55,134 bases of DNA from Spirochaetota bacterium. GTDB lineage: Bacteria > Spirochaetota > UBA4802 > UBA5550. The stretch spans positions 1-55,134 of the forward strand of contig QKCL01000065.1 in NCBI GenBank assembly GCA_003246895.1. Direction: 5' to 3'. Both the position numbers and the translations under genes were made by a program. The notes below the pieces were generated by a model. That model was not told where the DNA came from. It worked only from the letters and a program-made list of their open reading frames with translations, and searched no databases. How positions within the stretch are numbered: position 1 is the stretch's first letter; each line of letters starts with the position of its first letter. Below, one piece after another: positions 34,854 to 53,407 of this stretch.

Positions 34854-37371
34854 TAAGATAAAATTATTAATCATTCTGCTGCTCTTTGTCTCTTCTCTCT
34901 GTTCTGCTGTTGATCTTAAAAATGTTAAAACAATAATCGTTGCGGGAATTGCCGGATATGCACCGCTGGAATATGTGAATCTTTCCGGTAAACCCTCAGG
35001 ACTCTATGTGGATTTCTGGAACCAGTGGTCGAAAAAAACCGGGGTGCATGTTAATTATATTATTACCACCCAGGAGGATGCCCTGAGGGGGGTTTTGTCC
35101 GGGAAGTATGATGCTGTCATGGACTATGACAGGGCAGGTATGGAAGACAAACGGTTACTGCTCACTGCCACAATCTTTCATAAGGAAATATATATTTATC
35201 ATAACAGGAACATAAAATCAGCTGAAACGTACCATGATCTTGTGCCGTTAAAAGTCGGTGCCCTTCCCGGTGATGCAGAAATTATTGAACTCTCCGACAG
35301 CCGCATCTCCATCATAAAAAAAGAAAGCGTCCCCATGCTGTTTGACGAAGCAGAAAAAGGAAATATAAATGTTTTTGTTGCGGACTATGTCTCTGCCAGT
35401 CATGAGCTTTCAAGAAAAGGCAGATGGAAGAATTACTTCCAGTCATCTGAACCTCTTTTCAGAAAAAGAGTCAGGGCCATAGTCGGCCCCGGAAGGGAGG
35501 ACCTGAAAATCATTATCGATTCCGGTTTCAGAAAAATAACCAAAGAGGAGCAGTTTTTTCTCATAAAGACACATGCTGGAGGTAATTTCAGCTATACCAT
35601 GCCATGGGGTTATATTGCGGTCGTTTCCATTACTCTTGTGCTTTTGGCCAGTCTCCTGCTCTCCTGGGGCTGGAATATCCGTCTGAAAGTTACTGTGGAC
35701 AGGACCACTGCCGAACTGAAAAGGATGAAGGAGGCGGCCGAGGCCGCAAGTGAAGCCAAGACTCTATTCCTTGACAATATCTCCCACGAACTGAGAACCC
35801 CGCTTACACTTATTCTTGCACCCATCGAAAATGCCCTGAACGGGAAGCCTCTCGACAGCAGTACCCTCACCTTGATCAGGAGAAACGGGAGAAATCTGCT
35901 TGGACTGATTAATGATCTTCTTGATCTTTCAAAAATTGAGGCAGGAAGGACTGAACTTAATGTTTCAGAAACAGATATATGCCGGCTCATGGAACTTTAC
36001 TGCTGTGAGATCGAATCCGCTGTGCTATATAAGAATATCAGCATTACATGTACTGTCCCGGATAAACCGGTGCTTCTGTTTGTTGATCAGAAACAGCTGA
36101 TAACTGTTCTGTCTAATCTGTTTTCAAATTCCATGAAACATACAGACCCAGGGGGGAAGATTTCCATTTCACTTTCTGAAAAGGAAGATGATGCACTTGT
36201 CTGTTTCAGCGATACAGGAAAGGGAATAGAGGCGGACAGAATGGATACTGTTTTTGACAGGTTTACAATGGCCCATGAATCACCGGATAATAAAACAGGC
36301 GGAACCGGAATAGGGCTTTCACTTGTTAAGGGCATTATGGAACTTCATGGAGGCACTGTTGCTGTAGAAAGCAGGCATATAGACAGTTTCCCTGAAAATC
36401 ACGGTACAGATTTTTTCCTGACAATTCCCAAAGGCAGTGAACATTTTCATGAGAGGGACGATGTTAATTTTTCCATAGAGGATCTGCACGATGTAATCTC
36501 CTCATCTTTTATCTCATCTCATTCAGAACTTCCCGGTTATCTGAACGTGCCGGCGTCTGAAGACAGCCCTGAAGAAGGTGAAAAACCCGTAGTTCTTGTT
36601 GTGGATGATAACCATGATATGAGGAACTTCCTGAAGGATATCCTTTCTCCTTCATATGATGTAAAAACCGCAGTTGACGGATTCGACGCATTTGAGTTTC
36701 TTGAAGAGAATCCGGAAACTGATCTTGTACTTTCAGATATAATGATGCCGCGAATGGACGGCCATGAGCTTCTTGAAAAAATGAGGTCAGACGACAGCCT
36801 CCGTCATATACCTCTTCTCTTTCTTTCCGCAAGGGGAGATGATATTGTAAAACAGATGGGGCTTGAACACGGAGCCGTAGACTATGTAGTAAAACCCTTC
36901 AGTCCCAATGAACTTCTTCTGCGTATTCAGAAACAGATCGAAATGCAGCAGGCCCATAACATGCTTATGAAAATAAATGAAGAATTCTATTTGAAGTTAA
37001 AAGGGAAAGTCTCCTCAGACGGGGAAGGTACAGGCCTGAGCAGCACAATGAAGGAGAAGATGGAAAGGGTCTGTGAGTTTATAAATGAAAACTTCACACA
37101 TGATATAAACAGGGATCAGGTTTCTGAAATAATCCAGATAAATCCCGACAGCTTCAGCAGGGCCTTTAAAAAATATACAGGTAAAATTCTCTCTGATTAT
37201 ACAAATGAGCTGAGGCTGGAGGAGGCAAAAAAACTTCTCATGGAAACCGGACTTACCGTGACCAGAGTTTCCATTGTTTCAGGTTTTGAAAATCTCCGTA
37301 CATTCAACAGGATCTTCAGAAAATCTGTTGGTGTGAGCCCGAAGGAGTTCAGGGAAGAACATCAGGTATAG
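34846..37371 (+). CDS. Hybrid two-component protein: SBP_bac_3-TM-HisKA-HATPase-REC-AraC
   Basis: 841 residues. Signal peptide, then a periplasmic SBP_bac_3-like domain (about 25-245), one TM helix (about 254-273), HisKA with DNISHELRTPL (His about 314), HATPase with GTGIGLSLV (G2 box) and DTGKG, a receiver domain (acidic pair near 587-588, phospho-acceptor Asp631 in LSDIMMP, Lys683 in VVKPF), and a C-terminal AraC-type HTH. It would sense a solute and bind DNA directly, a whole pathway in one chain. Only the AraC domain gives this cluster a DNA-binding output. Target genes unknown. Confidence 0.92.
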   Translation: MINKIKLLIILLLFVSSLCSAVDLKNVKTIIVAGIAGYAPLEYVNLSGKPSGLYVDFWNQWSKKTGVHVNYIITTQEDALRGVLSGKYDAVMDYDRAGMEDKRLLLTATIFHKEIYIYHNRNIKSAETYHDLVPLKVGALPGDAEIIELSDSRISIIKKESVPMLFDEAEKGNINVFVADYVSASHELSRKGRWKNYFQSSEPLFRKRVRAIVGPGREDLKIIIDSGFRKITKEEQFFLIKTHAGGNFSYTMPWGYIAVVSITLVLLASLLLSWGWNIRLKVTVDRTTAELKRMKEAAEAASEAKTLFLDNISHELRTPLTLILAPIENALNGKPLDSSTLTLIRRNGRNLLGLINDLLDLSKIEAGRTELNVSETDICRLMELYCCEIESAVLYKNISITCTVPDKPVLLFVDQKQLITVLSNLFSNSMKHTDPGGKISISLSEKEDDALVCFSDTGKGIEADRMDTVFDRFTMAHESPDNKTGGTGIGLSLVKGIMELHGGTVAVESRHIDSFPENHGTDFFLTIPKGSEHFHERDDVNFSIEDLHDVISSSFISSHSELPGYLNVPASEDSPEEGEKPVVLVVDDNHDMRNFLKDILSPSYDVKTAVDGFDAFEFLEENPETDLVLSDIMMPRMDGHELLEKMRSDDSLRHIPLLFLSARGDDIVKQMGLEHGAVDYVVKPFSPNELLLRIQKQIEMQQAHNMLMKINEEFYLKLKGKVSSDGEGTGLSSTMKEKMERVCEFINENFTHDINRDQVSEIIQINPDSFSRAFKKYTGKILSDYTNELRLEEAKKLLMETGLTVTRVSIVSGFENLRTFNRIFRKSVGVSPKEFREEHQV

Positions 37372-37475
37372 TCAGGGCTCTCTCCTGTTTCTGAAAAGCG
37401 CATGGAACTGGTTTTGAATTCACAGTCCCGGCCGTACTTTCCCGTGATATTTAACCAAAGTGATGCAGAAAAGGA

Positions 37476-37847
37476 TCAGTCCTGAGACAGTACAGTGCCC
37501 CCGGCTTTTAGAATCAGTTTTTTATGGAAGGAGAATATTTCCAGTTTTTCCGATGAAATGGAACTGTTCAGGCTGCTCACTGTATAGAGTAGGGCTTTTC
37601 CCAATGGCAGTTCTAACTCCGTAAACATCATTTCCGACTGGGCAATTATCAGGAACGGACCCTCGGATGTGAATATCCATGCAGACCAGATATTAAGGCT
37701 TTCAAGATGTACCGAAACGGTTGTACTGCAGGGGGTTTCATGTTTCCTGCAGTGAATACCTTCAGTTTCACTGAATCTTTCCATTGATATAACACCGAAG
37801 TTTAAAATAGAATCTGTAATCTTTTTCATCCATATTACCGGAAGCAT
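37476..37847 (-). CDS. Hypothetical protein, 117-123 residues
   Basis: Weak ribosome binding site. Start may be at 37829 (MKKITDSILNFGVISMER) or 37847. It has Cys-containing HCRKHETPC near the middle and a beta-rich C-terminal half. Family not recognised. It lies between two kinase genes on the opposite strand. A promoter-like TTGTAT-17-TATAAT pair lies just upstream, inside the dispersed repeat described at 37889-37926. Might be real, but a random reading frame cannot be ruled out. Confidence 0.5.
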   Translation of the reverse strand: MLPVIWMKKITDSILNFGVISMERFSETEGIHCRKHETPCSTTVSVHLESLNIWSAWIFTSEGPFLIIAQSEMMFTELELPLGKALLYTVSSLNSSISSEKLEIFSFHKKLILKAGGTVLSQD

Positions 37848-38276
37848 TTATCTGTTTCTGTTTGATTATACTCCATGATGAAAGTCGATACAAGACAATA
37901 TCTGACCGGTCAGATTATGACCTATAAAAAACCGCTATTTTAAGAGTTTTTTCGTTTATTACAGTTTTTACAATATTCAATCCCTAAACAAACATGATGA
38001 ACAGCAGAATGTATTTGTCTATGGAGTTAATGAAGCCGCAGGGGGTAATGCCCTGTCTTTCAGTTACGGTCTGCATGCTGTCCTCTACATCTTTAAATTA
38101 TACTGCCCGCTGCTGATTAGATCCGGTTATTAAACCCGGATTTAAGTTTTCCAATACAGGATCTGTTTTTTAATGATTTGCGTTAGATGTTAAAAAATAA
38201 GTTGTTTTTTCAGTGACTCCTCATTATGATATTAGTGATTTGAATTCCCGCGGCCCTTTATTTGCAAGAGGAAACT
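37848..38276. other. 429-bp intergenic region with dispersed palindrome
   Basis: The intergenic space between the hypothetical protein and the kinase at 38277. It holds one copy of the TCTGACCGGTCAGA element (37889-37926) with an adjacent promoter-like box, and a weak stem ATCCGG/CCGGAT near 38120. Otherwise AT-rich with no feature I can support. Confidence 0.5.
37889..37926 (-). repeat. Dispersed TCTGACCGGTCAGA element, copy 1
   Basis: Reads on the minus strand TATAGGTCATAATCTGACC followed by GGTCAGATATTGTCTTGTA. It shares its core, and the flanking TATAGG...TGTCTTGTA, with the two copies at 49669 and 50410. On this strand TTGTAT and TATAAT are spaced 17 bp, in front of the hypothetical gene at 37847. 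Confidence 0.7.
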
Positions 38277-39995
38277 ATGACTGATGAACCCCTGTGTCAG
38301 GAACACTACTCTGATTTAAAAAAACGTTCAGGCATGTTCAGGTTTCTTTTTCTCCTTATTGTCTGCTATACATTATGCGGCAATGCACATCTGGAAGCAC
38401 GGGAGGTCCGTGTAGGTGTCTACGACAACCCACCCAAGGTAGAGATGGGCCCCGATGATACTCCCCGGGGACTATTCATAGATATTATTGAACATGTTGC
38501 CGGGAGGGAAGGCTGGGAACTGAGGTATGTCCATGGAACCTGGAAACAGTGCCTTCAGCGTCTTGACAGCGGTGATATTGATATAATGCCCGATGTGGCA
38601 TATTCCGAAGAAAGATGCAAACGTTACTCCTTTCACAAGATACCGGTTCAGACATCATGGCTTCAGGTTTTTTCATCAGCTAATGTTTCCATAAATGGAA
38701 TTTCAGACATCAACGGCAAGACCCTTGCCGTGCTCAAGGGGAGTGTTCAGGAGAGGATATGCCGGGACCTGAGAGAAGGGTTTCGCCTTAAATTCAGCAT
38801 TATTCTGTGCCCGGATTACAAAGAGACCATAAAACAGGTGGAATCCGGCAGGGCTGATGCTATTCTTGCGGGCAGGTTTTACGGATTCAACAGAGGGAGT
38901 TACGGGTCACTGAAACCGACTCCTGTCATACTGAGGCCCTCATCACTTTTTTTCGCAGTATCCAGAGGGCGCAACGGAGATCTCCTCCCTGCAATTGACA
39001 AACACCTGGCAGGACTTGTCAATGACCCCCATTCGGCATATTACGCAGCCATTGAGCGGTGGCTTGGAAAAGCTCCGAAGAAATTCATACCGGGCTATGT
39101 GTTATGGGGAGTAGTCTCAATCTCTGCAGTACTCCTCTTCTTTTTTGTCCTCAGTGTTGTTCTGAAGTTTCAGGTTGGTAAAAGAACAATGGAGCTTGAA
39201 AACAAGAACAACGCCCTTGAAGATGCATACAGCAAACTTGAAACTGCAAAGGACGATGCCGTAATGAAGGAACGTTTTTTTGCCTTCGGACAGCTCGCAA
39301 GCGGCACGGTCCATGACTTTAACAATATACTTCAGCCCATTCTCTGGCATGTCGACCTCATGCTTAAAAAGAAAGACCATGATGTTAACTTCAGCGAACT
39401 CATGAAGAAGCTGAAGATAATAAGGAAAGCCGTCAGGCATGGGACCGAAATAGTTGAACGGATGAGGCAGTTTTACAGCTCCACAGGATATTCGGAAGTC
39501 AGGAGCCCGGTTGATGTCAATGCCGTTGTACGTGATGTAATAGAGATCGGCGCCCATCACCTGAGGTCGGGGTACGGTCATGTGGATGTGGTTTTTCAGG
39601 ATGGAGAGGACTGTGAAATTTCAGGAAGGAGATCGAGCCTCTATGAAATGCTTCTGAACCTTGTAATAAACGCGGTTGACGCAATGCCTGATGGAGGGGA
39701 AATAGGAATATCAACTTCGAGAATGAACGGCACCGTAATCCTTGAAGTCAGGGACAGCGGTACAGGCATGACAGAAGAGGTCAGGAAGAAGTGCCTGGAG
39801 CCCTTCTTCACTTCAAAGGGTAACAGAGGTACCGGAATCGGCCTCATGATGGTGAACAATATTGTTCAGGATCACAGCGGAAAACTGGAAATAGAGAGTG
39901 CCCCCGGGAAGGGCACAACCTTCCGCATATCCCTGCCGGTATCACCGGAAGAAGAGGATAACCGGAGAGGGCAAAGTCTGGTGTCTGCCGGCTGA
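38277..39995 (+). CDS. Sensor histidine kinase with SBP_bac_3 sensor
   Basis: About 572 residues from ATG 38277 (GAGG 5 bp upstream). A TTG at 38262 is less likely. N-terminal signal anchor, periplasmic SBP_bac_3 domain (REVRVGVYDNPPKVEMGPDD, FIDIIEHVAGREGW, GDIDIMPDVAYSEERCKRYS), one TM helix (about 275-297), then a short coiled linker and kinase domains with phospho-acceptor His in ASGTVHDFNNILQP and HATPase G box RGTGIGLMMV. No receiver. It must phosphorelay to a partner outside itself, and no stand-alone response regulator is in the window. Ends convergent with the next kinase, with 137 bp between. Confidence 0.88.
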   Translation: MTDEPLCQEHYSDLKKRSGMFRFLFLLIVCYTLCGNAHLEAREVRVGVYDNPPKVEMGPDDTPRGLFIDIIEHVAGREGWELRYVHGTWKQCLQRLDSGDIDIMPDVAYSEERCKRYSFHKIPVQTSWLQVFSSANVSINGISDINGKTLAVLKGSVQERICRDLREGFRLKFSIILCPDYKETIKQVESGRADAILAGRFYGFNRGSYGSLKPTPVILRPSSLFFAVSRGRNGDLLPAIDKHLAGLVNDPHSAYYAAIERWLGKAPKKFIPGYVLWGVVSISAVLLFFFVLSVVLKFQVGKRTMELENKNNALEDAYSKLETAKDDAVMKERFFAFGQLASGTVHDFNNILQPILWHVDLMLKKKDHDVNFSELMKKLKIIRKAVRHGTEIVERMRQFYSSTGYSEVRSPVDVNAVVRDVIEIGAHHLRSGYGHVDVVFQDGEDCEISGRRSSLYEMLLNLVINAVDAMPDGGEIGISTSRMNGTVILEVRDSGTGMTEEVRKKCLEPFFTSKGNRGTGIGLMMVNNIVQDHSGKLEIESAPGKGTTFRISLPVSPEEEDNRRGQSLVSAG

Positions 39996-40132
39996 ACATG
40001 GGCAATGGCCTGAATTCCATATTAAAAAGCGACTCTCCCTGAACCGGCAGCTGAACGGGATAGTAATAAAGCCCTGTTCAATGTATTAAAACCGCAGCCT
40101 GTCTGAGTGCCCCAAAGGTCACCATGGATGCA

Positions 40133-42655
40133 TCACCGAATTTTATCAAGTACTCTGCGTATCTCCCTTGCAAGAACGCTGCTCTCAAGAGGTTTCATGA
40201 GCAAAGACCTTATGCCGATGTCCCACATTGCCTTTTCATCAAGCATTCCGCTGAAACCGGTGCAGATTATTACAGGAATATCCGGCCTGATCTTCATCGC
40301 TTCCCCGGCCATTACGTGTCCCAGTTCCTCGGGCATTATTTCGTCTGTCACAATAAGGTCAAAGCTGCCGGGGGCAGAGCGGAATACTTTTATTGCTTCA
40401 ATGGGTGATGTAAATTCGGTAACTGAATACCCCAGGGTTTCGAGATACTGTTTTCCAATATCAGTGATGAGCGGTTCGTCGTCTACAAACATTATCCTTT
40501 CATTGCCGCCGGCAACAGGAGAAGTGTCTTTGAAGGAGGGCGTTTCATCACATGTGCCCTCATGGAGCGGAAGAAGAACGTTCATGGTTGTACCTTCTCC
40601 CACTGTACTCTCCGGCCATATAAGACCATGATGTTTCTGTACGATTCCGTGAACCACTGCAAGGCCCATTCCTGTTCCTTTTCCAACCTTTCTGGTGGTG
40701 AAGAAGGGCTCAAATATCCTTTCCATAACTTCAGGAGTCATACCGTCGCCGGAATCGGAAACTCTCAGCAGTGCGTACATCCCTTCTTTTAAGCCGGTAT
40801 ATACCGAGGCTTTTTTCTCATCAATAAATACAGGTTCCAGCTTTATGGATACGGAACCGGAACTTTCAGATATTGCCTGATAGGCGTTGGTCACAAGGTT
40901 CATCACAACCTGATGGAGCTGTGTGGGGTTTGCAAGGACTGTTCCCGTCCTGTCGTCCAGGGAAAGATTAAGGGAAACAGACTCAGGAATAGCCTTTAAT
41001 ACAAGATCAGCAGCTTCCCTTACAAGGAGATAAATATTGACATGTTTACGGGACTCCTCGTCATTACGGCTGAAAAGGAGAATCTGCATAACCAGATCCT
41101 TTGCCCTTTTTATGGCAGCAAGAATATGTTCCAGATTTTTTCTGGTCTTCGGGTCACAGTCCGGGGACATTAAAGACAGTTCCGTGAACCCAAGCATGCC
41201 CGCAAGGATGTTGTTAAAGTCGTGGGCAATTCCTCCTGCCAGTGTACCCATTGCCTCCAGTTTCTGTGACTGCCTGTGCTGTTCCTCAATTTTTTTACGG
41301 CGGTTTATATCCCGTACTGCCACTACAAAACGGCCGGCATTTCCAATAACTGTAAAAGTGATTTTCATCTCAACCCAGAAGGTACGGCCGTCATAATGGC
41401 GTGCCATGCATTCAAAAGTCTGAGGTCCGGATTCTCCGGCATCACTTATCCGTTTTGACATTTTAACGGCAGGGAAGGGCTCCTTGCCGAAATCAATCTT
41501 CAGAAAATCGGCATCTATAATATCTTCGGGGGAATATCCGTACATCTGGAAAACACTCCGGTTCGCGTCCACTATCTTTTTCGTTTCCACGTCAACGATA
41601 ATGATGGAATCACCCGTTGAATCAAGTATTGCCTGAAGGTAGTCCTTGCTTTCACGGAGTTTCATGGCGTTTTCATTTAGTTCCCCCGTGCGCAGGGCTA
41701 CCTGTCTCTGCAGGTACCGGTTGAAGAGGAGAACTGCCAGAAACAGTATCACGATCAGTAAAGATACTGCTAAAATAATTTTAAGGTTCTTCTCAATAAA
41801 TGACGGCCTGAGGTTGATTTCGGATCCAACCCATTTTTTGTATATTGCCAGTTTCTCATCACTGCTCATCGAGTCCAGAACCTTGTCAAGAATAGGCTGG
41901 AGCTGTGATTTTCTTTTATTGACCGCAAAGCGCAGGTCCCAGTGAAAGTCAAGTTCACCGGCGTACTTTATGTTTGTTATACTGTATCTGTTTATGAGAT
42001 AGCTGGCCATCATATAGTCCACAATCCCCCCGTCTGCAGCTCCGGCAGACACTTTAAGCATTACCGTAAGGTCATCGTCGCATTCAATGATGCCTGCTCC
42101 GGGGTATTTTGACTTCACAAAGTCCAGACTGGTGTATCCTGCAATGCCGGCAATTTTCATGTAATTCAGTTCATTCAGGGACTTCAGGTCGGGCCTTCTG
42201 GTTCCGGTCAAAACAGCAAGGCGTGTTGTGAGAAACGGCCTGGTGAATACATAAATCTCCTTTCTTTTCTCATTGATCTGAAGGGCCCCGGCCAGATCAA
42301 GCTTTCCTGTCATTATGGCGGTGCGGAGGCCACGCCATTTTTTATAGTAGATGTATCTGAATTTAATACCCAGCTTCTGCTCGAATATTTTAATATAATC
42401 CGAGACTATACCCCTGTGAATGCCGTTCTCCACAAAATCGCCCGGGGGCCAGTTGGGGGTGGGAGCGTAAACAATATCATTTCCGTGTTCCCGGAGCCAC
42501 TCTGTTTCGTCTTCACTGAGTTTAAGTGAGGGGTCGGGTGTACCGGCCGTTGCAGTGCTTAACAGTGTGAATATCAGTAAACAGGGGATAAGAAGTCTTT
42601 TAAAAGTATTCAATGCTTCATTACCTCTGTGAAATAATATTGAATACTTCAGCAA
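40133..42655 (-). CDS. Hybrid histidine kinase: SBP_bac_3-TM-PAS-HisKA-HATPase-REC
   Basis: 840 residues as drawn. An alternative TTG start at 42613 has AGAGG about 10 bp upstream and begins closer to the signal peptide, so the N-terminus is uncertain. SBP_bac_3 periplasmic domain (about 45-285), TM (about 290-312), PAS (about 340-455), HisKA with GGIAHDFNNILAG (His about 478), HATPase with GKGTGMGLAVV, and a C-terminal receiver with the Asp in LIVTDEIMP. No DNA-binding domain, so it acts by phosphotransfer to another protein. Confidence 0.88.
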   Translation of the reverse strand: MLKYSILFHRGNEALNTFKRLLIPCLLIFTLLSTATAGTPDPSLKLSEDETEWLREHGNDIVYAPTPNWPPGDFVENGIHRGIVSDYIKIFEQKLGIKFRYIYYKKWRGLRTAIMTGKLDLAGALQINEKRKEIYVFTRPFLTTRLAVLTGTRRPDLKSLNELNYMKIAGIAGYTSLDFVKSKYPGAGIIECDDDLTVMLKVSAGAADGGIVDYMMASYLINRYSITNIKYAGELDFHWDLRFAVNKRKSQLQPILDKVLDSMSSDEKLAIYKKWVGSEINLRPSFIEKNLKIILAVSLLIVILFLAVLLFNRYLQRQVALRTGELNENAMKLRESKDYLQAILDSTGDSIIIVDVETKKIVDANRSVFQMYGYSPEDIIDADFLKIDFGKEPFPAVKMSKRISDAGESGPQTFECMARHYDGRTFWVEMKITFTVIGNAGRFVVAVRDINRRKKIEEQHRQSQKLEAMGTLAGGIAHDFNNILAGMLGFTELSLMSPDCDPKTRKNLEHILAAIKRAKDLVMQILLFSRNDEESRKHVNIYLLVREAADLVLKAIPESVSLNLSLDDRTGTVLANPTQLHQVVMNLVTNAYQAISESSGSVSIKLEPVFIDEKKASVYTGLKEGMYALLRVSDSGDGMTPEVMERIFEPFFTTRKVGKGTGMGLAVVHGIVQKHHGLIWPESTVGEGTTMNVLLPLHEGTCDETPSFKDTSPVAGGNERIMFVDDEPLITDIGKQYLETLGYSVTEFTSPIEAIKVFRSAPGSFDLIVTDEIMPEELGHVMAGEAMKIRPDIPVIICTGFSGMLDEKAMWDIGIRSLLMKPLESSVLAREIRRVLDKIR

Positions 42656-42721
42656 TATTCAAAAAAATTAGATGATATTTAAGGTAAGGTAATATTTTTC
42701 AAAGGCCGCAGGGCCGGGGTT

Positions 42722-45010
42722 TCATGAAATGTCATTGAGGCTATTGCGTTCAGTATCCATGTCTCTTTTATTCTCATGGATAATATCATGGACAGTACGG
42801 CTCAGTGCTGCAGTGAGAAAAGGCTTGCTGATAAACGCCCTGAGGCCCATCTGCTTCATTAAAGCAAGATCTTCGTCGCTGGAGAAACCTGATGTCATTA
42901 TCACAGGTGCATGGGGATCAATGGATCGTATCTGTTCGAAGCAGTCCATTCCATTCATGACAGGCATGGTCATGTCCAGTATTACAAGATCAATTTTTTC
43001 ATGGTCTCTGGTAAATATATCAAGGGCTTCCTGGCCGTTTTCGGCCATCTGTACCTCATAGCCCAGCTTTTCCAGAATGGCAGAGGCGGTATTTCTCATG
43101 ATTTCATCATCATCAGCGAGAAGAATCCGGCCGGTACCTGTTTTTATCTCCTCCATATCTGCAGGAGAGACCTGTTCCCCTGTGAGCGGTAAAAGCATCT
43201 GGAAAACAGTTCCTTTGCCGATTTCACTGTATACGGAAATGGCTCCGTCATGCTGCTTTATCGCTCCATAGACAGACGCCAGCCCCAGCCCGGTTCCATG
43301 GCCCTGTTCTTTTGTGGTGAAGAAGGGCTCAAAAATACGGGTCAGATTCTCTTTTGGAATTCCGATGCCGGTATCACTAACATCAATTTCAATGAAACAT
43401 CCGGCTTTGATGTCAAATGGAGAAGCCTCACATGCCCATTGGTCGATGCAGATTTCTCTGGTGGAGATTCTTATTGTGCCGCCTTCGGGCATGGCGTGTG
43501 ATGCATTGATGCAGAGATTAAGAAAAGAATTCTGCATGACAGAAGAGTCTCCAAGAATATTGCTGTGGACTGCACTGAAATCAGTTTCAATTTTTATTCT
43601 GGGGTCAATACTGCTTTTAACAAGGAAAAGGGTTTCGTTGATAATGTCATGTATGTTAAACGCTGCTGATACGCCTGTGGAATCGCGGGAAAATGTGAGC
43701 ATCTGTCTGGTGAGCTCCGCAGCCCGGCTTGCTGATGAGATGATTGTTTTGTGAATCCATTGCGCCTCAGAGTCGTCGGGGAGGTGATATTTAAGGAGCT
43801 CTGCCGCACCCATGATCCCCCCAAGCATGTTGTTGAAGTCATGGGCGATACCGCTTGCCAGTACCCCGATGGCTTCCATCTTCTTTGCTGAATTCATGCG
43901 CTCTTCTATTTTGTTGCGTTCGGTTGTATCCCTTATGACGAGAACCACACCGGAAATGCTTTCAGAATTCTCCCATATGACAGGAGCAGCACTTGTAATA
44001 ACCTCAATTGCCCGGCTGTCCTTCGTGATGAGGCTGATGTTTCTGTCTGTGCTGACAGCCCGGCCGGATGTAATAACTTCTTCAACTGGATTGAGAATAC
44101 TTGCCGGATTGTCAGTTGAAACAAATTTCAGCACACTGTCATGGGGCATGCCTTCGGCGTCAGGCATCTTCCATCCCGTAAGGGATTGTGCAGCAGGATT
44201 CATTTTGAAAACAAGCCCATGGGAATCGGTGACTATGACGCCGTCTCCTATTGAACGAAGGGTGGTTTCCATTCTGTTTCTGCTCTGAATGAGCTGGTTA
44301 TTCTTTGATTGAAGCTGCCGTCTGTGTCGCCTTGACCCGGCAATATAGAAAAAGCATAGTGGGGAAATTCCCAGAAGAAAAGCGGCAAGGCCTGCCATGA
44401 ACAGTATATTGCTCTTCGCAATCATGGCGTCAACATAGTCCACGGTAAATTCCGCACAGGCCAGGTATACTGAACCGTCGGGGTTTTTGACGGGAACAAA
44501 TACTGCCCTGAAATGTCCCCATGCATCCCTGAATGTGCCGTAGACAGGTGAGCTGCCTTTAAAGGCTTTCATTTCCGGCTCTGAAACACCGTTCTTATAG
44601 GGCATGAAATAGTAGATTTCTGTATCGGCAGTTGTGGGGTCGGCATTACTGTTGCAGGAGGTAAGAAAGACCCTGCCATTGATGAGAATGTCGGTCCAGA
44701 TGTATTTTGCGCCGGACTTGAGTGCAAGTCTGTTCAGCTTCTGCTCAATGGACCTGTATTCAGCTGAACTGATGGAATGGGGAGTTCTGGCTCTCATGTG
44801 GTAGTTTTCCGGAAGAATGAGGGGAACAGATTCCGCAACAGTGAGCAGCTGCCTGTCAATGTCCCTGTAAATATAGTCCCGGACCTGACCCCTGAACCAG
44901 AACAGAAACAGCAGGGTCAATACAATAAAAAATATTACTGCTATGAAGAGCAGTGAGAAATGACGTTTTGACCGGAACAGAGCTTGTGTCATCATACCGG
45001 TACAACACAC
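42722..45010 (-). CDS. Hybrid histidine kinase: TM-sensor-TM-PAS-HisKA-HATPase-REC
   Basis: 762 residues. Two TM helices (about 18-38 and 205-225) bracket an extracytoplasmic sensor region of the cache-like type (EMKAFKGSSPVYGTFRDAWG, HFRAVFVPV). Then PAS (about 245-370), HisKA SGIAHDFNNMLGGI, HATPase GHGTGLGLASV, and a C-terminal receiver with Asp in LVILDMTMPVM. It has no periplasmic binding-protein domain, unlike its neighbours. Encoded upstream of the 840-residue kinase on the same strand (66 bp apart), probably a diverged duplicate of a common kinase core. The start is uncertain among Met1, Met6 and Met7, with no clear ribosome binding site. Confidence 0.88.
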   Translation of the reverse strand: MCCTGMMTQALFRSKRHFSLLFIAVIFFIVLTLLFLFWFRGQVRDYIYRDIDRQLLTVAESVPLILPENYHMRARTPHSISSAEYRSIEQKLNRLALKSGAKYIWTDILINGRVFLTSCNSNADPTTADTEIYYFMPYKNGVSEPEMKAFKGSSPVYGTFRDAWGHFRAVFVPVKNPDGSVYLACAEFTVDYVDAMIAKSNILFMAGLAAFLLGISPLCFFYIAGSRRHRRQLQSKNNQLIQSRNRMETTLRSIGDGVIVTDSHGLVFKMNPAAQSLTGWKMPDAEGMPHDSVLKFVSTDNPASILNPVEEVITSGRAVSTDRNISLITKDSRAIEVITSAAPVIWENSESISGVVLVIRDTTERNKIEERMNSAKKMEAIGVLASGIAHDFNNMLGGIMGAAELLKYHLPDDSEAQWIHKTIISSASRAAELTRQMLTFSRDSTGVSAAFNIHDIINETLFLVKSSIDPRIKIETDFSAVHSNILGDSSVMQNSFLNLCINASHAMPEGGTIRISTREICIDQWACEASPFDIKAGCFIEIDVSDTGIGIPKENLTRIFEPFFTTKEQGHGTGLGLASVYGAIKQHDGAISVYSEIGKGTVFQMLLPLTGEQVSPADMEEIKTGTGRILLADDDEIMRNTASAILEKLGYEVQMAENGQEALDIFTRDHEKIDLVILDMTMPVMNGMDCFEQIRSIDPHAPVIMTSGFSSDEDLALMKQMGLRAFISKPFLTAALSRTVHDIIHENKRDMDTERNSLNDIS

Positions 45011-45398
45011 ATTATGTCTGTGTTTTTTTTAATTTTCGAAAATGAAATTGGAAATGAGACTGAATAAAAAACATGGGATGATGTGAAAGTGAATTGATGG
45101 ATCATTTTCTCCTCCATATCAGGAAATCAATTCTTTAAATGGCGATAAAACTGATTCTTTCATGATACAGCATCTCCTTATATTATGCCTTCCCGACAGG
45201 TATTAAAATGTTATTTAAAAATACAATTCGGTCAATGAATATTTTATGGTTTCTTTTTTTACTGAAGCGATTTAACATGTCTAAAGAGTGACATGTGATT
45301 ATTACTGTTCTGAAGGGCCGGAACCAGCAGTATATGTCATTAAAATGTAAAAGTATAAAGAAAAAATAAAGATAACCAATAAATAGAAAGAGGAAAGT
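45011..45398. other. 388-bp intergenic region
   Basis: AT-rich divergent region between the hybrid kinase and the ArsC-like gene. It must hold both promoters. I see no palindrome or clear promoter. An opposite-strand reading frame through 45183-45467 is low-complexity Phe/Leu-rich and is not supported. Confidence 0.4.
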
Positions 45399-45752
45399 AT
45401 GCTTAAAGTTTATATACACCCCAGATGCACAACCGTTAAAAGGGCTCTGAAATTTCTTGATGACCACAATGTTAAGTATGAAACATCAGATCTCACTGCT
45501 AAGCCAATATCAAAGAGCAATATCAAAAAGTATCACAAACTCTCGGGCCTTGACATTAAATACTTTTTCAATACAAGCGGCATGCTCTACCGTGAACTGG
45601 GCCTGAGCAAAAAACTTAAGGACATGACTCTCGATGAGAAATATGATCTTCTTGCCTCTGACGGCATGCTGGTAAAAAGGCCCCTCATCACTGATGGAGA
45701 GAAGGTTACTGTCGGATTCAAAGAGGATGAATTTTTAAATACATGGGTGTAG
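45399..45752 (+). CDS. ArsC/Spx-family thioredoxin-fold protein
   Basis: 117 residues. Opens MLKVYIHPRCTTVKRALKFL, with a single Cys (CTTV, not the CxxC of Spx proper) at the active site. The RPL-like segment LVKRPLITD then GEKVTVGF is the conserved ArsC-family anion loop. It is likely a YffB/ArsC-type reductase or a regulator. No ars genes are nearby, so arsenate reduction is unproven. Ribosome binding site AAGAGGAAAG precedes the start. Confidence 0.82.
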   Translation: MLKVYIHPRCTTVKRALKFLDDHNVKYETSDLTAKPISKSNIKKYHKLSGLDIKYFFNTSGMLYRELGLSKKLKDMTLDEKYDLLASDGMLVKRPLITDGEKVTVGFKEDEFLNTWV

Positions 45753-45788
45753 GGGAATAAAATACAAAATACAAAAAGGATGTTCATT

Positions 45789-46052
45789 ATGAAAATGTTA
45801 AAAATGTTAAGTCCCGTTCTGGTTATTATGCTCACAATGACCCTGGTTTCATGCGGGTCATGGGTTGACATGCCAAGCAGCGGAATGCTGAGCAACAAGT
45901 GCAGCAAAAAGGATGTTGAGAAGTATGAAAAGGCAAAGAACAAGTCATTTGCCAAAATGATTTTTTCAGGTATATGCAAAACCGCAGGCAAAGGGGAATT
46001 TGCAGACGATGTAAGATGTGAAAACGGCAAATTCCAGGTAAAGTGTAAATAA
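45789..46052 (+). CDS. Small Lys-rich lipoprotein
   Basis: About 87 residues from ATG 45789 (AAGGA 8 bp upstream), with a second in-frame ATG at 45780. Signal peptide ending LVSCGS gives a lipobox Cys. The mature part has three more Cys (KCSKK, GICKT, VRCEN, VKCK-like contexts) and many Lys. Not recognised. Immediately followed by a tandem repeat and hairpin array. Confidence 0.6.
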   Translation: MKMLKMLSPVLVIMLTMTLVSCGSWVDMPSSGMLSNKCSKKDVEKYEKAKNKSFAKMIFSGICKTAGKGEFADDVRCENGKFQVKCK

Positions 46053-46057
46053 CAGAT

Positions 46058-46154
46058 CCCGTGTAGGGAACGCAATCCCCGGTAGGGAACGCAATCCCCG
46101 TGTAGGGAACGCAATCCCCGGTAGGGAACGCAGATCTGCGTTCCCTACACGGGG
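46058..46154. repeat. Tandem GTAGGGAACGCA units ending in a hairpin
   Basis: Four copies of a roughly 20-bp unit (CCCC-G(T)G-TAGGGAACGC-AAT), the last running into AGATCTGCGTTCCCTACACGGGG so that the last unit forms a hairpin at 46116-46154 with stem GTAGGGAACGC. The same hairpin core occurs at 49607 and 50352. It is followed by a T-rich stretch and may serve as terminator for the lipoprotein and the convergent gene. Confidence 0.75.
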
Positions 46155-46171
46155 CGTTACTGCATGTTTTT

Positions 46172-46792
46172 TTAACCGCAGGTTGTTACGGTACCAATTG
46201 ATGCCGAGACCTGCTGCGCTTCATCGTACTTTCCGTCTGTTAGCACCGCATAGACCGCATATTCTGCGCCGGGTTCAAGGCCTGTGATGGTGAATGGAGA
46301 CTGGGTGTTCTTTCCTCCGTCGTGCATCTTGATCTCACCAGCGGAGAGCCCGTTCTCCCTTTTCTTTGTGAATAGGTATATATGTAATTCATTTCCGGTT
46401 TCACCGTGTGTAAATTCGCATCGGATTTCTCCGGAGCCACCGGGAGCTGCTGTGAAACTGTCAAGGACCAGATCTCCCATTGCCTTGCAAAGCTCGACCG
46501 GTTCACCGCTTCTCTGTTTTGCAAAGTTTTCACCGATGTAGACATTGTGCGCTCTCTTCCCCTTTTTCTCTGCCCACTGGTCCCATGACCTGCGCATGGG
46601 TCCCTTTATTGATTTCCAGTCTGAGTTCAGTTCCCTGAATACAATTCTGACTTTAATCTGTTCAGGGGTCGGAGTGTCTGTGTATTTCACCTTTTTTCTT
46701 GCATAGGTTCTGCCGTTCATACTGTAATAGACCATATCTCCAAGGGTGCCGCTTAACCCTTTAAATGCCGGATCCAGTTTTACAAGTGCCAT
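46172..46792 (-). CDS. Paralogue A: phage-like N-domain with Fn3-like C-domain
   Basis: 206 residues. The N-terminal half (LSGTLGDMVYYSMNGRTYAR, KKVKYTDTPTPEQ) resembles DUF6266-like or phage-tail-type domains in layout. The C-terminal third (SPFTITGLEPGAEYAVYAVL) is a fibronectin type III-like strand pattern. No signal peptide. It is clearly paralogous to the gene just upstream (46876-47499). GGAGA lies before the start, so translation is independent. Function unknown. A role as phage-like or extracellular structural protein is a guess. Confidence 0.7.
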   Translation of the reverse strand: MALVKLDPAFKGLSGTLGDMVYYSMNGRTYARKKVKYTDTPTPEQIKVRIVFRELNSDWKSIKGPMRRSWDQWAEKKGKRAHNVYIGENFAKQRSGEPVELCKAMGDLVLDSFTAAPGGSGEIRCEFTHGETGNELHIYLFTKKRENGLSAGEIKMHDGGKNTQSPFTITGLEPGAEYAVYAVLTDGKYDEAQQVSASIGTVTTCG

Positions 46793-46875
46793 AATGAGAT
46801 TCTCCTTTTTTATCTGGTTTTATTTACCTCAGGTACGGGCATCTGACCTGATACCCGTACTTGAGTGGTTTTGCC

Positions 46876-47499
46876 TCAGCTTCCTGCCTGGGCCATGATT
46901 GCATTTGACGCTGATACTTCCTTTGAAGCTGTGTATTCAGCATCTGTCAGTACTGCGTATATGAAGTATTCACCGCCGCTGTCAAGGCCAGTGAGCTTGA
47001 ATGGGGATGCTGCTCCCTTGCCTGCGCTGTATCTTCTGATCTCTCCTTCAGATACATTGTCCTTTTTCCCTTTCACAAAGAAGTGAAGGTGACGGGTGGA
47101 CGCGTTTGCAGGTATTGTGAATTCACAGTCTATCTCACCGGTTCCTGAGCCGGATGCTGTAAATTCAGGCGGTTCCGTGTCGCCGATCTGTCTGAAGAGT
47201 CTGATGGGCTCGCCGCTTTTTTCCTTTGAGAAGTTCTCCTTCATGTAGATATTGTAGCCGTTCATGTTCTTCTTCTCCCCGTAGCTGTACCATGAAGAGC
47301 GCATGATCTCTCCTGTTTCAGACCAGTCTGAACAGAGCCGTGCAAAGGTTTCCTGAATTTCAAGCTGCGCAGGAGAGGGGGCAGCCTTTCTCTTGCCCTT
47401 TACCCTTGTGTAGAGTTTGCCGTCCCTTTCATAGATTACGATGTCTCCCAGACTCCTGTTCATTCTGAGAAACATGGGGTTTAATTCGAATTCACTCAT
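46876..47499 (-). CDS. Paralogue B: phage-like N-domain with Fn3-like C-domain
   Basis: 207 residues, same order as its neighbour. NRSLGDIVIYERDGKLYTRV, KGKRKAAPSPAQL corresponds to the neighbour's GTLGDMVYY/PTPEQ region. The C-terminal SPFKLTGLDSGGEYFIYAVL again looks Fn3-like. It has its own GAGGAGG ribosome binding site. The two genes form a tandem duplication, diverged through most of the length while the signature positions remain. Codon use is similar to the other accessory genes nearby. Confidence 0.7.
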   Translation of the reverse strand: MSEFELNPMFLRMNRSLGDIVIYERDGKLYTRVKGKRKAAPSPAQLEIQETFARLCSDWSETGEIMRSSWYSYGEKKNMNGYNIYMKENFSKEKSGEPIRLFRQIGDTEPPEFTASGSGTGEIDCEFTIPANASTRHLHFFVKGKKDNVSEGEIRRYSAGKGAASPFKLTGLDSGGEYFIYAVLTDAEYTASKEVSASNAIMAQAGS

Positions 47500-47670
47500 T
47501 GTACTCCTCCTCTTTGAAATAGTGTTCTGATTTTAATCCGGGTCATCTGTGACCTCCCTGATTTTATTTCAGCAGGAATTGCTGCTGATATATTGAGAAC
47601 GAAGCCGCGGGGAATTAATTAAAAAAAATCTGAAATTTTTTTTAAAAAAGTTAAAAATATGCAGGTTCAT

Positions 47671-47732
47671 GGCCAGCTAAAGGCCGGCAAAGGCCGGCTG
47701 AAGGCCGGAGAAGGCCGGAGAAGGCCGGCAAT
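47671..47732. repeat. Tandem AAGGCCGG repeats
   Basis: Five perfect or near-perfect units of AGGCCGG followed by CAA, CTGA or AGA, after a diverged one (GGCCAGCTAA). Unit length 10-11 bp. Confidence 0.8.
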
Positions 47733-47770
47733 AGACCTGTTTTGGGGCGGAAATAGGGGAAAATTTTTAA

Positions 47771-47903
47771 AAAATCACCACGGATTTTCCGGCTTCGTGT
47801 CAGCCCCCGTCTCGTGATACCTGTTAAATTACCATAAACATCCATCTCGCCACCCCCTAAAGGGGGTTAAGTGACTTATTAAAAATCACCACGGATTTTC
47901 CGG
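47771..47903. repeat. Direct repeat of a 23-bp word
   Basis: AAAAATCACCACGGATTTTC plus CGG at 47771-47793 recurs exactly at 47881-47903. A related ACCACAG/ACACGGATGG word is at 50283-50335. Confidence 0.75.
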
Positions 47904-47998
47904 ATAAACACGGATGGTTTTGGGGGGCAAAGTATGCAGGTATTACATTCAGTTTAATCCTGAATCTGTTCCTCGCCACCCCTGAGAGGGGTTTGTGA
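47846..47998. repeat. Paired CTCGCCACCCC hairpins
   Basis: CTCGCCACCCCCTAAAGGGG (start 47846) and CTCGCCACCCCTGAGAGGGG (start 47972) form short GC-rich stems and share the flanking sequence. They are two copies of one dispersed hairpin unit. Confidence 0.65.
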
Positions 47999-48003
47999 AC
48001 ATT

Positions 48004-48102
48004 GTCATGCCGGATTCATGACTTGTCATTCCATGCCCCAGGGGCCTCGTCATTTTCTGCTCCAGGGCCTTGTCATTCCCGGCACCGACCGGGAATCCAT
48101 GT
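48004..48102. repeat. TGTCATTCC-type repeat region
   Basis: Contains repeated (T)GTCATTCC/TGTCATGCC words and the palindrome CCCGGCACCGACCGGG, followed by AATCCATG. This is the common extragenic 'GTCATTCCCGG' repeat type. Confidence 0.6.
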
Positions 48103-48180
48103 TCATCAAGCTTCATACTGTATATATAAAGGATTCCGTTTTCACTGGAATAAAGGATCGGATTGATACAGATGATTTTG

Positions 48181-48224
48181 CGGGAGGGGCGGGTTCAGAA
48201 ATTGTCCTGTAATCGGAAAAGTTA
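48181..48224 (+). repeat. Deleted copy of the dispersed palindrome element
   Basis: CGGGAGGGGC, the right arm of the hairpin type at 49607, is followed directly by GGTTCAGAAATTGTCCTG and then TAATCGGAAAAGTTA, matching the end of the copy at 50410. The middle of the element is absent. It lies 19 bp before the start of the membrane-protein gene at 48243. Confidence 0.6.
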
Positions 48225-48242
48225 TTTGATCTGATTTTTGGA

Positions 48243-49577
48243 ATGCTGTATTCTGGAAGTGCTAAAAATAATGATTATGTCTTAACTATTAAAAATTATT
48301 CAGGATTAAAGAACCTTATGAAATCTGGAAAACCCGGCCTTGTTGTTGCCGCTCTTATTTATTTTTCGATTATATCGGCCTTAGCTGCGGCAGCTACATT
48401 TTACCTACTTATTTTCGGTGATGATTTACGTCTATTTTCAGTACTGAGTATTATGGCACTTCTGCCAAACCTCATTGGAGTAATTGTTTTAATGAAAGAA
48501 CCCAGGCCCGTTTACCATACCTACTGTTCAATACTTGGAAATATCACAGCATTTGGTTCACTGTTTTTGAATGTTGTAATTATGTTAAATTCGGACTTTG
48601 TTTTCAAAAATACGACAGTAATAATTATTTCGATTCTTCTGATATATCTGTTTCTGAAGTTTGATTTCAGTCATGACAATCGTATATATTTCAGGAAAGT
48701 CAGAACAAGATCTAAATGGTTTTTAATCCCGGTGAAGGGTAAAGACAGGGAAAACCCGGGCTCAGATGAGAACAGTTCTCTCAAAGAATGGGAAAATTTC
48801 TCTATGGATTTTAAGCTGATCTTTGTCTATCACGGGTTCATTATGGCTCTTTTGCTGATTAGCCGTATTGTTCCTGTAGAAATTCAGCTTGCATTTGTGG
48901 TGTTACTTTTTCTGATTCTGGTCTACAGGTCTGTTAAACATCGAATAGAAAACAGGTGGTCATGGCCAGGCCTTGAAATAAAAAAGATTCCATTTACGGT
49001 ATTTTCTGCCTCAATGGTTTTATTCTTCTTTCTGCAAAACTATAATAGCTCACCGCCCTCTGACCCGACTTTCTTTCCATGGTATGCCGCCGGTCTTGTA
49101 ATGTTTTTTTATACGGTTATGATCGGGCTTAATATATCTACTCTATCGAGAAAAACTTTTGAATCACAGTGTGAGGGGAGAAAGGTTGTTGTAAAACCTG
49201 AACTTCAGAGAGAGGAAGGTATTATCTTAGAAAAACTGATTATAAAGATATATCATTTAGCATCTACTTCAGTAATAATAATGATGATAGCCTACGCCTG
49301 GCTTTCTGACCGGTCCACAGTAGAAGACAGAAACAGCGGTGTTACCAAGGCCATTATTGATTCTCTTGAGTTTCTTGCAGGGTTTATTGGAAAATCCATT
49401 GATAAGGGCCCTGAAAAATTTTTTGAGGGTATATTGTTATACTGGGCGCCTGTAGTCATTGCGGCAGGATTCATAATCCATTATATATTGGGGATTAAGG
49501 TTTTTGGGGATTCTCCAACATTGAAAGAGTTAATGAATAAATTCATAAATTGGAGAAAATCAGGTTCACGCAGATAG
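48243..49577 (+). CDS. Polytopic membrane protein of unknown function
   Basis: 444 residues with about ten hydrophobic segments. The N-terminal 40 residues are hydrophilic, and several charged cytoplasmic loops follow (GKDRENPGSDENSSLKEWEN near the middle). No motif I know. A weak TTTTTGGA before the start. The C-terminal end runs close to a repeat palindrome. It may be acquired with the repeats in this zone. Confidence 0.65.
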   Translation: MLYSGSAKNNDYVLTIKNYSGLKNLMKSGKPGLVVAALIYFSIISALAAAATFYLLIFGDDLRLFSVLSIMALLPNLIGVIVLMKEPRPVYHTYCSILGNITAFGSLFLNVVIMLNSDFVFKNTTVIIISILLIYLFLKFDFSHDNRIYFRKVRTRSKWFLIPVKGKDRENPGSDENSSLKEWENFSMDFKLIFVYHGFIMALLLISRIVPVEIQLAFVVLLFLILVYRSVKHRIENRWSWPGLEIKKIPFTVFSASMVLFFFLQNYNSSPPSDPTFFPWYAAGLVMFFYTVMIGLNISTLSRKTFESQCEGRKVVVKPELQREEGIILEKLIIKIYHLASTSVIIMMIAYAWLSDRSTVEDRNSGVTKAIIDSLEFLAGFIGKSIDKGPEKFFEGILLYWAPVVIAAGFIIHYILGIKVFGDSPTLKELMNKFINWRKSGSRR

Positions 49578-49606
49578 AAAGGGTGTATACACACAGGGGT
49601 GTTGTT

Positions 49607-49652
49607 GCCCCTCCCGTAGGGAACGCAGATCTGCGTTCCCTACGGGAGGGGC
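49607..49652. repeat. 46-bp perfect palindrome (BglII-centred hairpin)
   Basis: GCCCCTCCCGTAGGGAACGC-AGATCT-GCGTTCCCTACGGGAGGGGC is a perfect palindrome. Its arm matches the hairpin at 46116-46154 and differs from the palindrome at 50352 by a paired G-to-A/C-to-T change in each arm. Confidence 0.85.
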
Positions 49653-49668
49653 ATCTTTCTAAAAAAAA

Positions 49669-49710
49669 CATAGGACAAAATCTGACCGGTCAGAATCTGT
49701 CTTGTAATTA
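49669..49710 (+). repeat. Dispersed TCTGACCGGTCAGA element, copy 2
   Basis: CATAGGACAAAATCTGACC then GGTCAGAATCTGTCTTGTAA, 16 bp after the palindrome. It is followed by TTGTAA-16-TATGAT promoter-like boxes, in front of the nuclease gene. Confidence 0.75.
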
Positions 49711-49751
49711 TGAAAGTAAAAGTTATGATGTGTTTTGCTGGAAGGTTTGAG

Positions 49752-50246
49752 ATGAAAAAATTACTGATCCTTATTATCCTGTTTATCTCAGTTCCGGTTT
49801 TCGCCTCGGGCACTCACCGTGTGCTCCACGTCGTGGACGGCGACACCCTGCGCATCGACTACAACGGCAAACCTGAAAAGGTCCGGCTCATAGGTATAGA
49901 CACACCGGAGTCCGGTTATAACAATAAAACAATACGGGACTCAGAGAGGACCCATGAAGATATAGACTCGATTATAAAGAAGGGCAGGCTGGCTGCAGAC
50001 TTTGTGAAGTCCCTTGTGAAAATCGGCGACTTTATCAGACTTGAATTTGACGCCCAGGAGCGTGACAGATACGGCAGGCTTCTTGCCTATGTATTTCTCA
50101 AGGACGGCAGAATGCTCAATGATATGATTGTCCGGTCAGGCTATGCTTCTGTAATGACTATTCCGCCCAATGTAAAGTATGCCTCCCTTTTCCGGAAGTC
50201 ATACAGGTATGCCAGAGAGAAAAAGATTGGGCTGTGGGAGAGATGA
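49752..50246 (+). CDS. Secreted thermonuclease (SNase family)
   Basis: 164 residues from ATG 49752 (GGAAGG 6 bp upstream). A frame upstream from 49710 is not needed. Signal peptide (MKKLLILIILFISVPVFAS), then the SNase fold with VVDGDTLRIDY, RLIGIDTPESG and DRYGRLLAYVFLKDG. The Asp in VDGDT and the Arg/Glu of the active site are present. It would cut DNA/RNA outside the cell or in the periplasm with calcium. Possible role in nutrient recovery or defence. The upstream dispersed element carries its likely promoter. Confidence 0.85.
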   Translation: MKKLLILIILFISVPVFASGTHRVLHVVDGDTLRIDYNGKPEKVRLIGIDTPESGYNNKTIRDSERTHEDIDSIIKKGRLAADFVKSLVKIGDFIRLEFDAQERDRYGRLLAYVFLKDGRMLNDMIVRSGYASVMTIPPNVKYASLFRKSYRYAREKKIGLWER

Positions 50247-50351
50247 CCCGGCGGTTCGATAGGGGCCGGGAATTTTGAAAGGATTACCACAGATGGATGG
50301 GATAAAGGATCGGATGGACACGGATGGTTTTTGGGTTGTGGAGACGGATGA

Positions 50352-50395
50352 CCCCTCCCGTAAGGAACGCAGATCTGCGTTCCTTACGGGAGGGG
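50352..50395. repeat. 44-bp perfect palindrome
   Basis: CCCCTCCCGTAAGGAACGC-AGATCT-GCGTTCCTTACGGGAGGGG. A covarying copy of the palindrome at 49607. Confidence 0.85.
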
Positions 50396-50409
50396 CCTGT
50401 CCCAAAAAA

Positions 50410-50451
50410 TATAGGACAAAATCTGACCGGCCAGAAATTGTCTTGTATTAA
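50410..50451 (+). repeat. Dispersed TCTGACCGGTCAGA element, copy 3
   Basis: TATAGGACAAAATCTGACC then GGCCAGAAATTGTCTTGTAT. A further -10-like TATAAT lies about 35 bp on. Located upstream of the exported-protein gene at 50579. Confidence 0.75.
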
Positions 50452-50578
50452 CAAAAGTTACTTGCTGAAATAGAAAAGATATATAATGGTATTGGTATAA
50501 AAATTTTAGTATAATTTTGCTCTTTAAACCGGTTTATTGAATTCTGGATACAGGCAAATTATTAACAGGGGGGATGTG

Positions 50579-51028
50579 ATGAAAAAAAATGTCATTCTTA
50601 TTGCTCTGGTAATTCTTACATATGCTTCCGGGTTTGCCGAAGAAGAAATCAAGATGGTCAGGGTGATAGATTTTCCCAAGGCAAGTGGTAAAGCCATATA
50701 TGCTGAAACCATAAAGCTGCTGGCGGCAAAGTATTATCTGATAGATCAAAGAATTACGCATTATAAGTACCCTACGTTGATGTGCAACGTAACTATCCCG
50801 AATAGCCTCTCACAAACCTATATTGTTTACCTGTATTTACGTTTCGACTTCAAAAATAAAAAAGTAAGAGTTATTATTCAGAACGCAGAAATACATGGGG
50901 CTGATTTGGGTGATTTGAATCTCAAGAGTATTAATAAAGCCGATTATCAGGTACTTCGATCTGATATAGAGAGCTTTTTCGATGAATACAAGAAGTCACT
51001 GGATCGGGCATTTAATAGCAAATGGTAA
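50579..51028 (+). CDS. Small exported protein, DUF4468-like
   Basis: 149 residues from ATG 50579 (GGGGG then ATGTG before it). Signal peptide (MKKNVILIALVILTYASGFA). The mature part (FPKASGKAIYAETIKLLAAK, then YLYLRFDFKNKKVRVIIQNA) has a layout similar to DUF4468 TBP-like proteins, but similarity is weak. No catalytic motif. No known partner. Preceded by copy 3 of the dispersed element. Confidence 0.65.
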   Translation: MKKNVILIALVILTYASGFAEEEIKMVRVIDFPKASGKAIYAETIKLLAAKYYLIDQRITHYKYPTLMCNVTIPNSLSQTYIVYLYLRFDFKNKKVRVIIQNAEIHGADLGDLNLKSINKADYQVLRSDIESFFDEYKKSLDRAFNSKW

Positions 51029-51068
51029 CAGTTTTACAGCATGAATTTAATCAACAAAAGGAAACACC

Positions 51069-53253: not shown

Positions 53254-53407
53254 AGGCTTTTTCTATATACCTACTTCATTGGTACTTGATGGGAATATTT
53301 GTCAAGAGGTACGGTTGCCGAGTGATGAACGGCATGTCAATACTTGCAATGAAGGTGAATTCAGAATGGCCGATCATCGTATCGAGGCAAAGGGTGGAGT
53401 TGAGTGA
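53243..53407 (+). CDS. Possible 54-residue ORF between MNT and HsdS
   Basis: Begins MRGEGFFYIPTSLVLDGNIC and ends overlapping the hsdS start by 4 bp. Weak ribosome binding site, no homology recognised, and codon bias is not distinct. It may be a relic of a rearranged gene between MNT and hsdS. Confidence 0.3.
   Translation: MRGEGFFYIPTSLVLDGNICQEVRLPSDERHVNTCNEGEFRMADHRIEAKGGVE

Follow-up and report, generated by a model that had tools for sequence, protein, structure and literature searches.

A conserved predicted operator/promoter in a Spirochaetota bacterium, with an AraC-type hybrid sensor kinase as its most likely binder

The window analyzed here is a 55,134-nucleotide stretch of DNA from a Spirochaetota bacterium (assembly GCA_003246895.1, contig QKCL01000065.1). 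Between positions 34846 and 45010 it carries a run of four sensor kinases, three of which have SBP_bac_3 sensor domains. The kinase encoded at 34846–37371 on the plus strand is a hybrid in which Pfam recognizes SBP_bac_3, HisKA, HATPase_c, Response_reg, and HTH_18 domains in one chain, with the DNA-binding domain encoded at 37024–37368. Next to it on the minus strand is a 123-aa ORF (37476–37847) that belongs to no known family and has coding-like codon usage. Two adjacent genes (46172–46792 and 46876–47499, minus strand) encode similar proteins of 206 and 207 aa with no Pfam match. They are followed on the plus strand by the genes of a 444-aa membrane protein of no known family (48243–49577), a secreted staphylococcal-nuclease homologue (SNase; PF00565, E = 2.4e-20; 49752–50246), and a 149-aa protein of no known family with a signal-peptide-like N-terminus (50579–51028). 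The region at 51069–54684 (plus strand) resembles, by eye, a type I restriction-modification locus with methylase and specificity subunits, and a nucleotidyltransferase-substrate-binding/HepT-like gene paired with a nucleotidyltransferase gene is located between the methylase and specificity genes.

An earlier, sequence-only reading of the window had described three full copies of a palindromic element and a fourth, deleted one, each pointing at the start of the next gene, and the description holds. We scanned the window with a profile (R1) built from the four copies of this genome only. The predicted operator copies 1, 2, and 3 lie at 37888–37930 (minus strand, 49.6 bits), 49663–49707 (plus strand, 50.7 bits), and 50404–50448 (plus strand, 53.1 bits), respectively. 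The next distinct match is copy 4, a genuine remnant at 48195–48212 (plus strand, 9.1 bits), which retains the right half only (TCAGAAATTGTCCTGTAA) and is probably non-functional. The starts at which the copies point, 37847, 48243, 49752, and 50579, all belong to real ORFs. The predicted targets of copies 1, 2, and 3 are the 123-aa ORF, the SNase gene, and the gene of the 149-aa protein, respectively, and the membrane protein gene stands behind the remnant. In the 3.57-Mb genome, a pattern scan allowing up to two mismatches finds four full copies, the three in the window and one on another contig (G000:C71:15908–15952, minus strand) with a 192-aa protein as predicted target; a BLAST scan finds these four, the remnant, and nothing else convincing. 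All full copies are intergenic and oriented towards the next gene, and the placement noticed in the window thus extends to the whole genome. An exact TCTGACCGGYCAGA is expected by chance about 0.03 times per genome and 0.0004 times per window. The alignment of the three window copies with the C71 copy has 30 invariant positions in 46 columns, and the 38 bp at its core form an inverted repeat that is not perfect. Besides the SNase gene in the window, the genome has just one more, on C71 (L028, 9965–10486); the two are 68% identical in protein, and an operator copy adjoins both. None of the SNase genes of related genomes has the element, and the SNase link is therefore local.

We then compared the flanks of the copies. 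Copies 2, 3, and 4 have a common upstream flank, a long hairpin (GCCCCTCCCGTAGGGAACGCAGATCTGCGTTCCCTACGGGAGGGGC) of which only the end is left at copy 4, and AAAAGTTAYTTG is found downstream of copies 3 and 4. Because of these common flanks, the three copies do not represent three independent events and look like local duplicates. Copy 1 and the C71 copy have unrelated flanks and are independent events; their similarity is bounded by the A/T tract and by TTGTA, which gives the true borders of the element. The dispersed REP-like hairpins before copy 2 (49607–49652, a perfect palindrome) and before copy 3 (50352–50396) are not part of the operator. This hairpin (GGGAACGCAGATCTGCGTTCCC) occurs six times in the genome, on C91 and C50 only, with sites in the window at 46118–46157, 49607–49652, and 50352–50396 and on C50 at about 2511, 3943, and 10468 of L072. 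One C50 copy is inside a reading frame that looks, by eye, like a RAYT-type transposase, and the hairpin is probably a REP/RAYT-type repeat. Other short dispersed repeats, CACGGATNNNCNGGATAAACACGGATGG-like, occur in the same intergenic stretches (47765–47925, 48146–48183, and 50298–50335).

Symmetry was inspected in 26 elements, taken from this genome and its relatives. Pairing between the arms holds in 77% of cells, as opposed to 28–45% when the register is slid, a figure that leans towards symmetry because the elements were picked partly by likeness to a symmetric site. Changes on both sides occur at 7 of 11 pairs and are still informative despite this selection; the clearest are TCTGA..TCAG versus TCTGT..ACAG and ACC/GGT versus ATC/GAT. 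Inverted symmetry reaches 0.74, whereas direct-repeat identity is only 0.32 at 20 bp and 0.22 at 21 bp. The single-strand hairpin is weak (−3.8 to −6.2 kcal/mol with DNA parameters), which makes a DNA site likelier than an RNA structure, and a scan of 36000–55134 against Rfam 15 gave no match over the gathering score.

The geometry following the palindrome is that of a promoter. In all elements, a hexamer starts 14 bp from the palindrome center; it reads TTGTAT, TTGCAT, TTGCCA, and the like, or GAGACA or TAGACA in more distant members. The promoter-side ends of copies 1, 2, and 3 are the predicted −35 hexamers TTGTAT (37888–37893), TTGTAA (49702–49707), and TTGTAT (50443–50448), respectively. 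The predicted −10 hexamers are TATAAT at 37865–37870 (minus strand), 17 bp from the −35 of copy 1, and TATGAT at 49724–49729 (plus strand), 16 bp from that of copy 2, the same spacings as had been proposed before; copy 3 has only a poor one (TGAAAT) at 17 bp. A TATAAT-like −10 with at most one mismatch is present at 16–17 bp in 6 of the 13 TGTCTTG-type elements, compared with 0.5 expected when these sequences are tested at other offsets (P = 3e-6), and a good one is missing in the other seven and at copy 3. As neither R1 nor the second model, R2, included the −10 stretch, this enrichment supports the promoter reading, which is upheld as a prediction for copies 1, 2, and C71.

Relatives of the element were sought in the 45 other genomes of the order. 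In four of them (G001, G018, G015, and G016), R1 detects matches that are intergenic and share the layout of the element, and R2 was built from the R1 copies plus these four matches. R2 finds strong members outside the model on G016:C20, G015:C15, and G018:C98 (E between 1e-9 and 4e-8) as well as weaker members in other families of the order (G028 and G039). The diverged versions that R1 detects are from other genera of the same family, and they are intergenic with the same geometry. The family-form consensus is A/T tract–ATRGGWCA–N3–TCTGAYMNRTCAGCNGATGTC–TTGNNN. The diverged forms are reached by profile models only; a DNA BLAST with the element as query gave no match in the other genomes of the family, in plasmids, or in phages. 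In G015, G016, and G018, the element is followed by a STAS-domain gene (75% and 34–36% identity), and further genes in this position in relatives encode lipoprotein-like, outer-membrane, and PAS proteins. At the phylum level (247 genomes), strong matches do not extend beyond this genome and the four relatives with R1 matches; the small remainder is weak or located in reading frames. We regard the hits in G140 and G222, which are inside reading frames, as chance, and likewise those in G005:C244, G018:C86, and G018:C287. Matches to GNCANNNTCTGACCGGYCAGNNNNTGNC in the GTDB collection and IMG/VR are also chance-like and mostly in coding sequence. G018, of the same family, has in addition a FliI/FliJ-like gene pair, as read from translations; this pair and the TATAAT-type promoters would speak against a Bacteroidota affiliation.

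In several other genomes, a palindrome with the same core (GCAAATTCTGATTAATCAGATATTGCGTAGACA and variants) follows an AraC gene at a short distance and precedes a gene that encodes an FGGY carbohydrate-kinase domain. The AraC gene, the palindrome (TCTGAT-N-ATCAGA type), and the FGGY gene form a recurring unit (L143, L147, L151, L154, L155, L161, L163, and L164), and the ligand of its AraC regulators is probably a sugar. The center of these palindromes has the same distance to TAGACA/GAGACA as that of the element has to the −35. Hence, the design seems to reach a wider group of the AraC regulators of the order.

To connect the element with a regulator, the AraC domain of the window hybrid was searched in all 46 genomes. 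Outside its own genome it has about 270 matches (45 genomes), which together with a 500-bp margin take up 0.2% of 165 Mb. An AraC-domain gene is found no more than 500 bp away for 3 of the 36 R1 hits versus 0.08 expected (P = 8e-5) and for 7 of the 28 R2 hits versus 0.06 expected (P = 6e-13), the latter counted with the own genome left out and otherwise in genomes not used in building R2; the margin was set after the first cases had been seen, which renders these figures somewhat optimistic. The element is directly behind a gene for a hybrid kinase with receiver and AraC domains on G001:C78, G016:C255 (a fragment), G028:C11, G039:C353, and G039:C191. In the window, copy 1 is 517 bp past the regulator's stop codon and on the opposite strand, whereas the elements of the relatives are directly behind the regulator. 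The hybrid closest to that of the window (G015:C33:357351) has no element directly downstream, and strong elements away from any AraC gene also exist (L075 and L087). The TGTCTTG form occurs in four other genomes, and these are precisely the ones that best match the window AraC domain (G015, G016, G001, and G018; 133–114 bits), a coincidence of 1 in 149,000 if the genomes were independent, although shared ancestry weakens this figure. G014, a congener of G015/G016, and G019, a congener of G018, have neither the domain nor the element, G019 being only 73% complete. The domain alignment reveals that the second helix-turn-helix (GF-[ED]-x-x-x-[TS]-FN) is conserved across the wider group of AraC regulators.

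The sequence, the two-fold symmetry, the promoter geometry, the conservation across genera, and the association with AraC regulators together provide computational support for an operator. The unit of operator plus promoter, one of two possibilities raised by the sequence-only reading, is accordingly favored by the conservation of the element before genes in different genera, its fixed −35/−10 geometry, and its co-localization and co-occurrence with AraC hybrids. We consider it likely that the element is an operator/promoter with a built-in −35 and that its regulator, most likely the hybrid encoded at 34846–37371, activates scattered genes. MarA/AraC-type domains have two helix-turn-helix motifs, which need contacts about one helical turn apart. 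Each half of the element, GGWCA-N3-TCTGAYC, may accommodate one AraC-type DNA-binding domain, and its two contacts, GGWCA and TCTG, would be about one helical turn apart and suit both motifs. As the halves face each other, a dimer of the regulator would bind the inverted repeat; its two facing domains would cover 38 bp, with the promoter-side half abutting the −35 (TTGNNN) and the −10 following 16–17 bp on. In the proposed mechanism, the periplasmic SBP_bac_3 domain would sense a ligand, upon which the hybrid would autophosphorylate and its own receiver would be phosphorylated. The phosphorylated receiver would then lead to dimerization of the hybrid on its sites and to activation of promoters with a poor −35. 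The predicted targets would be the secreted nuclease, the exported 149-aa protein, the 123-aa ORF beside the regulator, and the 192-aa gene on C71. We infer ligand sensing, autophosphorylation, receiver-driven dimerization, and binding from the domain content, and the poor −35 hexamers make activation the likelier mode. The hybrid as binder, the assignment of half-sites, activation over repression, and control by a ligand are deduced features of the model.

The same operator/promoter might be bound by another regulator, of AraC type or of another family, or serve as a repressor site, which we regard as a clearly less likely alternative. AraC-type domains are indeed common, as the number of matches in the order illustrates, and two weaker ones occur in the own genome; furthermore, the right arm touches the −35 or extends into it, an arrangement often seen at repressor sites. 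On the other hand, the remaining AraC domains of the own genome are distant (28% identity for the one listed), the hybrids that carry this form of the element are matched best by the window hybrid, and domain and element are present or absent together even within genera. These observations favor the hybrid as the regulator. The other possibility raised earlier, a mobile palindromic element that inserts upstream of genes, here by happenstance as a REP/MITE-like repeat, finds some backing in the common flanks of copies 2–4 and the nearby multi-copy hairpin, and REP/RAYT repeats are likewise short intergenic palindromes in several copies. The TCTGACCGGTCAGA element differs from these repeats in its rarity, its orientation, its conservation across genera, and its link to promoters. 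With no more than four full copies in the 3.57-Mb genome, all of them between genes and in a single orientation, with diverged forms in other genera that keep the −35/−10 geometry and precede homologous STAS genes, and with no associated transposase, mobility is very improbable as an explanation.

Two further explanations are even less probable than mobility, and about equally so. An integron attC-like recombination site of gene cassettes would be in line with the element following both SNase genes of the genome, with different genes thereafter, and with the gene-element-gene-element order at 48–51 kb. However, no protein exceeds the integron-integrase cut-off (the best reaches 216 bits versus 265), the GTTRRRY/RYYYAAC core boxes are absent from the element alignment, copy 1 is not behind a gene of the same orientation, and the elements of relatives are behind regulators and not in cassette arrays. 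The best-scoring protein is a tyrosine recombinase with an extra N-terminal part (G000:C69:21437–22525, L071), which scores 218.6 of the 220 bits required by the XerA/integron-integrase model, and it has no element beside it. An intrinsic terminator or a structured RNA element after the upstream gene could account for the palindromes of relatives often lying just past a stop codon and for the flanking A/T runs, but the stems are weak and their 3′ arm is not followed by a T run, conservation (TGTCTTG) continues past the inner stem, and the element has no Rfam match and is absent from the terminator-scan list.

We next compared the predicted operator with known systems. RhaS/RhaR of E. coli are cytoplasmic sugar-binding proteins that recognize two inverted AraC-type half-sites of about 17 bp, set about 16–17 bp apart and next to the −35. 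The element would also consist of two inverted AraC-type half-sites of about 17 bp next to a −35, but they are contiguous, and the proposed regulator is a membrane hybrid kinase. With respect to the order of its parts, periplasmic sensor, kinase, receiver, and AraC domain, this regulator resembles the hybrid two-component systems (HTCS) of Bacteroides, an AraC-type family that has been called unique to Bacteroidetes (PMC3878776). Among plasmid-borne proteins, its closest homologues come from Bacteroidota and are of HTCS type, with about 31% identity, and in both systems a pair of AraC half-sites, predicted ones in the case of the element, precedes genes for exported or surface proteins. The Bacteroides HTCS motifs are direct repeats of 12–16 bp sites with 5–9 bp spacers (PMC3878776), whereas the halves of the element are inverted and abutting. 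Since it lacks direct repeats of 12–16 bp sites about 20–21 bp apart, we do not class the element as a Bacteroides-type HTCS operator. The sensors also differ, being SBP_bac_3 or 7TMR-DISM instead of propeller-type, and the targets are not polysaccharide-utilization loci. We found no described DNA targets of such AraC hybrids outside Bacteroides, and nothing usable in the literature on AraC hybrids in spirochaetes or on RhaS half-sites.

Taken together, the element is predicted to be a real, conserved operator/promoter. It seems somewhat more probable than otherwise that a whole clade of AraC regulators within the order, made up of membrane HK-RR-AraC hybrids as well as shorter relatives, relies on a single operator design, in which two abutting inverted sites are centered 14 bp from the −35. 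If true, this order-wide design would differ from the direct repeats of the Bacteroides HTCS and would mean that membrane-bound AraC hybrids can use inverted sites in place of direct repeats. A readable operator of fixed geometry would link regulators with their targets by sequence alone, and regulons would become predictable genome by genome, including a scattered regulon that comprises a secreted nuclease, exported proteins, and STAS signaling proteins.
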